DNA of 64,000 nucleotides from contig NZ_JUGF01000002.1 in NCBI RefSeq assembly GCF_000799165.1, positions 310,001-374,000 of the forward strand. The letters are read 5' to 3'. This document shows, piece after piece, positions 21,682 through 25,757 of this stretch (within the stretch, counting starts at the first letter, position 1; every line of letters begins with the position of its first letter). The notes under the pieces are model-generated. The model was given only the letters and a program-made list of their open reading frames with translations, searched no databases and was not told where the DNA came from. Source of the DNA: Methylotenera versatilis 7. Its GTDB lineage: Bacteria > Pseudomonadota > Gammaproteobacteria > Burkholderiales > Methylophilaceae. Position numbers and translations under genes: made by a program.

Positions 21682-21697
21682 ATCCACATAATTAAAA

Positions 21698-21741
21698 TTG
21701 TATTTTTTACAAAATTATTTATAATAATGTAAATATTACAA
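21698..21741 (+). promoter_or_regulatory. argA promoter with two matching palindromic operators
   Basis: A -10 TATAAT at 21720-21725 lies 16 bases after TTGTAT at 21698-21703, giving an expected start near 21732. Two copies of TGTA-N5-TACA occur: 21699-21711 (within TTGTA-N5-TACAA, overlapping the -35) and 21728-21740 (overlapping the expected start). Their centres are 29 bases apart. The layout is that of a repressed promoter. The most likely binder is the HTH domain of the gene itself (inference). Confidence 0.6.
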
Positions 21742-21753
21742 ATATATGGATTT

Positions 21754-23364
21754 ATGATGGCATCTCTTGGCAGATTTATTCGGCAAATACGTCAATCAAA
21801 CAACCTGACACTACAGCAACTTGCCAGCAAAATAGGTGCGGATGCTGGTAATTTATCACGCATAGAGCGCGGCGAGTTAGGTGTATCAGAAACTTTATTG
21901 CGCAAAATTTCTGCCGCACTGGATACAACGCCTGCACATCTTTATGCCTTAAGCGAAGCAGAAAACAATTTGCCGTTGCAAGTGGAAGAACCGCATCAAT
22001 CCTATCTATCGACTTTTAACCAATCCACTTCTCGCGCAACCGCTGAAGACTTCGTGCAATGGTTTCGCTCTGCAACACCTTATATTCACGCATTTGGTGG
22101 CCGCACCTTTGTTATCGCATTTGGTGGTGAAGTAGTCAATGATGCGCAATTTATTGCCTTATCACACGATTTAAACCTGCTTGCCAGCCTAGAAGTAAGA
22201 TTAGTTTTGGTGCATGGCGTACGTCCACAGATTGAACAACGTTTAAAGCGCGATAAACTGACACCAGCTTTTCATGATGGATTGCGTGTGACCGATGATG
22301 CGGCGATGGAAGCCGTAAAAGAAGCCAACGGTGCTGTGCGAGTGGAGATTGAAGCGTTACTTTCAATGGGCATTGCCAATTCACCAATGGCAGGCGCAGA
22401 TATTCGCGTGGCGAGCGGCAATTTTGTTACCGCCAAACCACTTGGTGTGCGCGATGGCGTGGATTTACAACACACAGGCGAAGTACGCAAAGTAGATGCT
22501 ATTGGCATACAAAAACGGCTGGATGATAACGAGCTGGTATTGCTATCACCGCTTGGTTATTCGCCAACTGGCGAAGCTTTTAACTTAAGTCTGGAAGATG
22601 TCGCGGTAAGCGCTGCGATTGCGCTGGACGCAGACAAACTGATTTTCTTGATGGATAGTGACGGCGTGCGCAATTTGCGCGGTGATTTATTGCGTGAGAT
22701 GACGGCAGAAAAAGCCAAGAATCTGTTACGCAATGTACAAAACAATGAAGCCCCCATTCATTTCTCTGAGGACGTTGATTATTATTTGCCTGCCGCAGTA
22801 CGCGCCTGCAAACATGGTGTCGCGCGCACGCATTTGATTTCACGCCATATCGATGGCGCCATCATCCAAGAGCTTTTCACGCACAGCGGCATTGGTACGA
22901 TGGTGACAGAAGAAGGTCTGGAAACTATGCGCCAAGCAAATATTGACGATGTTGGCGGCATATTGAAATTGATTGAACCACTGGAAAATGATGGCATTTT
23001 AGTACGACGCGGACGTGAGCGCATCGAAATGGAAATTGACCATTTCTATATCATGGAACACGACAATCGCATCATCGGCTGTGCAGCACTTTATCCCTTT
23101 GCCGCTGAGCACATGGCAGAATTTGCCTGCTTGGCAATTGATACGGACTATCGCGGCAATGGTCGTGGCGATAGACTGTTCAATTATTGCCAAGCGCAGG
23201 CAAAAGAAAATGGCTTTAAAAAACTGTTCTGTTTAACCACACGCACTGAACACTGGTTTTTAGAGCGGGGATTTATTGAACAATCAATTGAAAAACTGCC
23301 GCAGGAAAAGCAAAATCTCTACAACTTCCAGCGCAAATCAAAAGTATTCGTTAAGCCGCTTTAA
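21754..23364 (+). CDS. argA: N-acetylglutamate synthase fused to an N-terminal XRE-type HTH domain
   Basis: First step of arginine synthesis: acetyl-CoA plus glutamate to N-acetylglutamate. The 536 residues contain three parts. Residues 5-65 are a Cro/CI-type HTH (LTLQQLASKIG, then DAGNLSRIERGELG). Residues about 100-350 are the amino-acid-kinase-like domain that normally senses arginine (FVIAFGGEVVND at 119, VHGVRPQIEQRL, ASGNFVTAKPLGVRDGVD). Residues about 393-530 are the GNAT domain (IDDVGGILKLIEPLE, CLAIDTDYRGNGRGDRL, FFLTTRTEHWF-like CLTTRTEHWFLERGF). E. coli ArgA is about 443 residues and lacks the HTH. No in-frame ATG occurs between residue 2 and about 187, so the fusion cannot easily be bypassed. 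It is followed by argB. Confidence 0.93.
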   Translation: MMASLGRFIRQIRQSNNLTLQQLASKIGADAGNLSRIERGELGVSETLLRKISAALDTTPAHLYALSEAENNLPLQVEEPHQSYLSTFNQSTSRATAEDFVQWFRSATPYIHAFGGRTFVIAFGGEVVNDAQFIALSHDLNLLASLEVRLVLVHGVRPQIEQRLKRDKLTPAFHDGLRVTDDAAMEAVKEANGAVRVEIEALLSMGIANSPMAGADIRVASGNFVTAKPLGVRDGVDLQHTGEVRKVDAIGIQKRLDDNELVLLSPLGYSPTGEAFNLSLEDVAVSAAIALDADKLIFLMDSDGVRNLRGDLLREMTAEKAKNLLRNVQNNEAPIHFSEDVDYYLPAAVRACKHGVARTHLISRHIDGAIIQELFTHSGIGTMVTEEGLETMRQANIDDVGGILKLIEPLENDGILVRRGRERIEMEIDHFYIMEHDNRIIGCAALYPFAAEHMAEFACLAIDTDYRGNGRGDRLFNYCQAQAKENGFKKLFCLTTRTEHWFLERGFIEQSIEKLPQEKQNLYNFQRKSKVFVKPL

Positions 23365-23484: not shown

Positions 23485-24408
<924 letters not shown>

Positions 24409-24534: not shown

Positions 24535-25164
24535 ATGCACCGAGTTTGGATTTTTGATTTAGACGATACCTTACACAACGCCTCCGCGCACATCTTCCCT
24601 GTGATGAATCGCGCCATGACGCAATACATCATGGATGAACTGGATTTAGATGAAGTCGCCGCGCATCAATTGCGCCAGCACTATTGGCAGATTTATGGCG
24701 CAACGCTTAAAGGTTTAATGCGCCATCATGGTGTTAATGCGCCGCACTTTTTAAAAACCACACATGCGTTTATGGATCTGCCGAATATGGTGATTCAAGT
24801 CAAACAACTACGCCATCTACTGCAAAGTCTGCAAGGGCGAAAATGTGTGTTCACCAATGCGCCGCGGGAATATGCAATGCGTGTGCTCACACTGATGGGC
24901 ATTGCTGATTGCTTTGAATTGGTCTTTAGTGTGGAGTCCACAAAATTTCATGCCAAGCCATCAATACGTGGCTTTCAATCGCTACTTCAAACCTTAAAAA
25001 CTCATCCTAAAAACTGCATTATGCTGGAAGACAATCTACCCGCTTTAATGACAGCAAAGCGATTAGGCATGAAAACCATCTGGGTGACTAAAAAACAACA
25101 AAAACCTGGTTTTGTTGATTACAGAATTGATTCAGTGTTAGCGCTCACTCACATTCAGCTATAA
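24535..25164 (+). CDS. Pyrimidine 5'-nucleotidase (HAD superfamily)
   Basis: A 209-residue HAD phosphatase with all four motifs: VWIFDLDDTLHN (motif I), VFTNAPREYA (motif II), AKPSIRGFQ (motif III lysine) and MLEDNLPALMTAKRLGMKTIWV (motif IV). The DLDDTLHNASAHIFP start and small helical cap are those of the Sdt1-like pyrimidine 5'-nucleotidase group. It sits between argB and slmA, an order known from other betaproteobacteria. No good ribosome-binding site precedes the ATG; the GC-rich element lies there instead. Confidence 0.85.
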   Translation: MHRVWIFDLDDTLHNASAHIFPVMNRAMTQYIMDELDLDEVAAHQLRQHYWQIYGATLKGLMRHHGVNAPHFLKTTHAFMDLPNMVIQVKQLRHLLQSLQGRKCVFTNAPREYAMRVLTLMGIADCFELVFSVESTKFHAKPSIRGFQSLLQTLKTHPKNCIMLEDNLPALMTAKRLGMKTIWVTKKQQKPGFVDYRIDSVLALTHIQL

Positions 25165-25202: not shown

Positions 25203-25757
25203 ATGGCATCAGACCGTAAACAGCAAATCTTAGAAACACTCGCCAAAATGCTAGAAAATCCTAAGCGCGAGAAAATCACCACAGCCAGCTTAGCTGCCAA
25301 ACTAGACGTAAGTGAAGCCGCGCTTTATCGCCATTTTGCCAATAAAGCACAAATGTTTGAAAATCTGATTGAATTCATCGAAGCCTCAATTTTTGGTGTG
25401 ATTAACAAAATCACGACAGACGAAACAGATGGCGCAAAACAGGTGCAATTAATCATCACCATGTTGTTAAAATTCGCTGAAAAAAACCCAGGTATGACAC
25501 GCGTGCTAATTGGCGACGCTTTAGTGAATGAAGAGGAATGGTTACAAACGCGCATTAACCAGCTTTACGACAGAATCGAAGCCAGCTTAAAACAAAGCAT
25601 CCGCATCGCAGAAACTAGTACAGGCGTTAAGGGTGATGCTGAAGCGCAGGCGAACTTGATGGTATGTTATGTAGTTGGTCGCTGGCATCAATATGCCAAG
25701 AGTGGGTTTAAACGTAAACCAACGGAGTTTGTGCAACAGCATCTAAGCTTACTGTAG
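25203..25757 (+). CDS. slmA: Nucleoid occlusion factor SlmA (TetR family)
   Basis: TetR-fold DNA-binding protein that blocks FtsZ ring assembly over the nucleoid. It has 184 residues. The N-terminal HTH has RKQQILETLAKMLENPKREKITTASLAAKLDVSEAALYRHFANKAQMFENLI in order, with the characteristic SEAALYRHFANK recognition region. The following IEFIEASIFGVI and FAEKNPGMTRVLIGDALVNE match SlmA rather than a metabolic TetR repressor. Its target, FtsZ, is encoded in the same window with the conserved tail that SlmA binds. A terminator follows. Confidence 0.93.
   Translation: MASDRKQQILETLAKMLENPKREKITTASLAAKLDVSEAALYRHFANKAQMFENLIEFIEASIFGVINKITTDETDGAKQVQLIITMLLKFAEKNPGMTRVLIGDALVNEEEWLQTRINQLYDRIEASLKQSIRIAETSTGVKGDAEAQANLMVCYVVGRWHQYAKSGFKRKPTEFVQQHLSLL

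Follow-up and report, generated by a model that had tools for sequence, protein, structure and literature searches.

The argA gene of Methylotenera versatilis 7 encodes an N-acetylglutamate synthase (NAGS) fused to an N-terminal helix-turn-helix (HTH) domain of the XRE type, and is preceded by two matching palindromes that lie over its predicted promoter. Across the Methylophilaceae, a family of bacteria that live on methanol, the paired palindromes and the fusion co-occur, and this comparison strongly supports the proposal, originally made in a sequence-only reading of this DNA, that the ArgA fusion is autoregulated; we regard it as highly probable that HTH-ArgA represses its own promoter, i.e. 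that it exerts negative autoregulation. The accompanying suggestion that arginine controls this autoregulation is only plausible.

The paired dyads and the promoter of argA

In the window, i.e. the whole 64 kb stretch of DNA that was analysed, the pattern TGTA-N5-TACA has only two matches, and these are the two dyads of the sequence-only reading: box 1 (TGTATTTTTTACA, 21699-21711) and box 2 (TGTAAATATTACA, 21728-21740), neither of which is assigned to a strand. They fall within 42 bp and are both held by the 72-base intergenic gap before the gene coding for the XRE-HTH and ArgA. The dyads exceed their first description in length, extending over 21696-21714 and 21725-21743 respectively, with a family consensus of approximately WTTTGYAWWWWWTRCAAAW. 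The predicted sigma-70 promoter of argA (21698-21725, plus strand) comprises TTGTAT at 21698-21703, a 16-bp spacer and a perfect TATAAT at 21720-21725, which sits between box 1 and box 2. As TTGTAT is a weak -35 element, matching the consensus at three of six positions, this promoter was missed by an automatic promoter scan. The claimed overlap of box 1 with the -35 element is borne out by its containing most of TTGTAT, while the "predicted start" assigned to box 2 is valid for the transcription start, which we infer to lie at about 21732, inside this box; the start codon, at 21754 or 21757, is downstream of it.

Paired dyads of the form TGY-N7-RCA with a spacing of 29-32 bp were recovered in 86 of 124 non-redundant Methylophilaceae upstream regions, as against a mean of 0.1 expected from shuffled sets of 124 regions; these regions are mutually related, such that the counts are not independent and the fraction is not a probability. 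The spacing is narrowly constrained, with 71 of the pairs at exactly 30 bp and 15 at 31 bp, and the sequence around the boxes is very different, with the distance to the start codon and the sequence further upstream also varying between lineages. No such pair precedes any of 23 argA genes from the same order that lack the HTH (about 21 of these regions are informative, the start in L134 and L140 being set too far inside the gene). The palindromes are hence conserved where the fusion is, on which the sequence-only reading had staked its claim. By overlapping the predicted promoter of the gene and being conserved with the putative regulator, the pair shows the features expected of an autoregulatory operator.

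In some lineages the boxes are degenerate, shifted or rearranged. Two loci from the genus g16 (L085 and L086), with genomes of about 1.1-1.3 Mb, have TGTA-type boxes 50-52 bp apart rather than 30. Candidatus Methylopumilus-type genomes have three dyads of the same type, the additional one lying some 31 bp upstream from box 1 (L055, L056, L243, L248, L250, L251, L270 and L282, all upstream of HTH-argA).

Domain architecture, distribution and recognition helix of HTH-ArgA

The fusion gene (21754-23364, plus strand) codes for a 536-residue product, and all of the domain coordinates below are on the same strand. The XRE-type HTH spans residues 5-63 (21766-21942) and is detected both by profile matches, with HTH_31 and HTH_3 each scoring above cut-off, and in the predicted structure; its recognition helix occupies approximately residues 31-38 (21844-21867). 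It is followed by a linker predicted to be disordered (residues 70-98; 21961-22047), which varies in length among members of the family, an amino-acid-kinase-like domain (residues 118-363; 22105-22842), with K295 inside it and E373 just behind it, and a GNAT acetyltransferase domain recovered in a domain search (about residues 425-508; 23026-23277). The product scores far above the curated cut-offs of the equivalog models for ArgA, and judging by its sequence it is a full metabolic enzyme. The AlphaFold model displays five HTH helices with good confidence, disorder at residues 70-98 and, beyond it, a helix (97-110) that is the counterpart of the N-terminal helix in classical NAGS; with an overall pLDDT of 70 and a pTM of 0.49 the arrangement of the domains is not readable from this model. 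The closest solved structure, both by sequence and by fold, is the NAGS of Neisseria gonorrhoeae, and the nearest solved relatives of the HTH by sequence are C.BclI and ClgR. Residues of the arginine site are retained, with K201 and E270 of the N. gonorrhoeae enzyme corresponding to K295 and E373, and the arginine-site loop ELFTxxGxGT being present as ELFTHSGIGT. In classical arginine-sensitive NAGS the motif of this loop at the arginine site is E-(L/I)-(F/M)-(T/S)-X-X-G-X-G-T (PMC4490483). Downstream on the same strand are argB (acetylglutamate kinase, 23500-24408), a HAD hydrolase gene (24535-25164) and slmA, coding for the nucleoid occlusion factor (25203-25757).

A match is found in 148 of 150 Methylophilaceae genomes; most of these matches include the HTH, and the genera concerned span the family (Methylotenera, Methylophilus, Methylobacillus, Methylovorus and Candidatus Methylopumilus). 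Among the best 80 hits of the HTH profile in about 85,000 species genomes, 78 continue in frame into ArgA sequence, and the remaining two are truncated loci that end before the tested motif. About 50 sister families have ArgA without the HTH among the matches listed; outside the Methylophilaceae these matches begin near residue 62-99, and the HTH is thus absent from them. A class-level HTH profile recovered scattered XRE proteins outside the family, and none of the six long frames that we checked contained an ArgA motif. As the fusion is confined to the Methylophilaceae among the listed ArgA proteins, it looks to have arisen once, at the root of the family. A metagenome-assembled genome titled Sulfuritalea sp. 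(L245, JAIPCR010000004.1) has a Methylophilaceae-type fusion along with the operator, and its title is probably wrong. In one genome (G071:C27:305226-306781) the fusion gene seems to be broken: its two pieces overlap but are read in different frames, and one of them is interrupted by a TGA, which points to a pseudogene or an assembly error.

Within the recognition helix N33, L34, S35, R36 and E38 do not vary among the 15 members that were aligned. Variation is seen at residues 31 and 32, which we take to be the equivalents of residues 28 and 29 that set specificity in the 434 repressor, and the operator is variable too. Thus, box 2 has TGTA in 55 of 68 cases with Ala31 as against 2 of 33 cases with other residues at this position, and the operator is visibly different in Methylophilus strains with Ser32. 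In a branch of Methylophilus with a helix of the form DASN or DTSN instead of DAGN the operator is changed, box 1 having ATTTGC as a half-site and box 2 being TTTTGCAAAAT-like in most cases (L031-L034, L036, L038, L039, L043, L046, L260, L262-L265, L267 and L269). These counts are suggestive, but the family tree provides only six independent comparisons between helix and operator and no significance; hence, we set aside coevolution as a proof and treat the apparent association of helix variants with operator variants as a lead.

Search for other targets and competing explanations

The host genome (2.5 Mb) has one copy of the paired pattern, at argA; this single occurrence, like the absence of the pair upstream of HTH-less argA genes, agrees with the claimed autoregulation. 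Of 15 genomes from the genus, 8 have the pair in its strict form, and in seven of these it lies at argA; in the eighth (G116) it is on a different contig, apparently by accident. The frequency of single TTGTA-N5-TACA sites matches that of a reversed control, and in the host genome none of them precedes a recognisable arg gene, as judged by eye from the translations. The motif also fails to recur upstream of other arg genes, where the sequence-only reading had suggested looking for it: there are no paired boxes at carA, argC, argF, argG or argH in six genomes from four genera, with the best matrix scores at these genes being 8.4 or less versus about 18-24 at argA, from whose boxes the matrix was trained. 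Nor was a box of its own found for the argB gene of the window. With single sites at control level, one pair and five other arg genes empty, we reject a genome-wide regulon, and to judge from the available sequences HTH-ArgA seems to be an autoregulator with a single target. A relaxed 17-base version of the motif is somewhat more frequent than its control in several genomes, and argA accounts for few of these hits; HTH-ArgA may have weaker targets beyond argA.

The arginine repressor ArgR (PF01316) had no match over cut-off in 60 genomes of the family and no match in the host genome. Neither of the expected signs of an ArgR regulon, the ArgR protein and boxes at several arg genes, was encountered in these searches, and an ArgR site was ruled out as the identity of the dyads given the lack of an ArgR over cut-off and the different motif. 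The former result is consistent with the report that, among the proteobacteria analysed, ArgR is restricted to gammaproteobacteria (PMC5343134).

Could the palindromes be chance products of AT-rich intergenic DNA? A lone TGTA-N5-TACA is indeed unremarkable, with 1.34 expected in the window and single sites genome-wide being at control level. However, a pair 25-35 bp apart did not arise when the 140-bp upstream region was dinucleotide-shuffled 20,000 times or when the whole window was shuffled 300 times, and this, along with the fixed spacing and the conservation of pairs upstream of argA in the family, contradicts a chance origin, which we rule out as having a negligible probability. A different objection is that the dyads are operators of a separate stand-alone repressor, either an XRE protein without a fused enzyme or some other regulator that acts as a dimer, with the HTH of ArgA binding elsewhere or being idle. 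Binding by ArgA is a deduction, and the host genome does have other XRE-type proteins, including a second weak HTH match at G000:C1:556282. Yet the paired dyad tracks the HTH fusion, is missing where argA lacks the HTH and has its one occurrence in the host genome at the fusion gene itself; moreover, the strong conservation of the fused HTH implies that it must bind something, and no other site is enriched. We accordingly view a stand-alone repressor as improbable.

The remaining question is the direction of control, as HTH-ArgA could bind the dyads and activate its promoter. Weak -35 elements are common at activated promoters, and the third dyad of the Candidatus Methylopumilus-type genomes is at a position that would permit activation. 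Against this, protein bound over the -35 (box 1) and the expected start (box 2) would keep the polymerase out, and activation is very improbable on this account. The arrangement of the boxes points instead to repression by HTH-ArgA.

Proposed mechanism and comparison with known systems

We propose that the two dyads together form the operator at the argA promoter and that the HTH domain on ArgA itself binds them, with one pair of HTH domains per dyad. Occupancy of box 1 would cover the -35 element and that of box 2 the transcription start, resulting in RNA polymerase being blocked, and ArgA would thereby limit its own synthesis. NAGS of the HTH-ArgA type is expected to be a hexamer by analogy with its N. 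gonorrhoeae relative. The two HTH pairs would probably be furnished by one NAGS hexamer or by two adjacent hexamers, which would account for a constant distance between the boxes of about 30 bp, close to three turns of the helix; the third dyad seen in Candidatus Methylopumilus-type genomes could correspond to a hexamer having three HTH pairs.

Arginine bound in the kinase-like domain may in addition adjust DNA binding. In the N. gonorrhoeae NAGS arginine shifts the N-terminal helix, and the hexamer ring becomes about 10 Å wider (PMC4490483). The HTH is joined just before the helix that arginine moves, and arginine could therefore alter its presentation, with the coupling being weakened by the disorder and variable length of the linker between the HTH and the sensor. 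We rate arginine-dependent autoregulation at a little under an even chance. Similarly, we advance only tentatively the idea that the hexameric NAGS is its own arginine-sensing repressor, with one allosteric event both inhibiting the enzyme and setting the occupancy of the paired operator in a family without ArgR. If true, a single protein would both feedback-inhibit and repress the first step of arginine synthesis, and the adjustment of argA in such a family would be explained; in many other bacteria the task of repressing argA falls to the separate repressor ArgR. With its one gene and two operators, the system would also be compact enough for a direct test of how allostery in the enzyme is coupled to DNA binding.

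Only a few autoregulated enzymes that carry their own DNA-binding domain are known, the textbook cases being PutA, BirA and NadR, and we found no description of an HTH-bearing NAGS in a literature search that lay mostly outside subscription journals. Relative to classical NAGS (N. gonorrhoeae, 2r8v/3d2p), with which it shares the kinase-like and GNAT domains and the conserved arginine site, HTH-ArgA has about 95 additional residues (HTH and linker) before the N-terminal helix. In the XRE/Cro-CI class a regulator's own promoter is typically overlaid by short dyads; C.BclI and ClgR belong to the same HTH class but are stand-alone proteins, whereas in HTH-ArgA the HTH is borne by an enzyme. ARG boxes are spaced by about 21 bp, as against 30 bp for the boxes of HTH-ArgA. 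ArgR, which is a hexameric, arginine-binding protein with paired boxes at arginine genes, is the functional analogue, its hexamer binding two ARG boxes (PMC6245113). It nevertheless differs from HTH-ArgA in fold and motif, and in governing a regulon rather than one target.

The presence of an enzyme and a DNA-binding domain in the same protein is the sequence signature of a trigger enzyme, and with DNA binding predicted from the conserved operator HTH-ArgA would work like one of the PutA type. BirA and NadR have an N-terminal HTH on a biosynthetic enzyme and repress pathway genes according to metabolite supply. Both are listed among trigger enzymes (PMC8249747), but they control other operons of their pathways, while the operator of HTH-ArgA is at its own gene only, and the catalytic domains are unrelated. 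The DNA-binding domain of PutA is not of the XRE type. Escherichia coli PutA is comparable to HTH-ArgA in that a metabolic enzyme is fused to a DNA-binding domain that acts, or in HTH-ArgA would act, at the promoter region of the enzyme's own gene, and is described as a trigger enzyme and single-target regulator of putA/putP (PMC8249747). The logic would nonetheless be reversed, in that the catabolic PutA represses without its substrate proline, whereas repression by the biosynthetic ArgA would, if linked to arginine, follow the end product.
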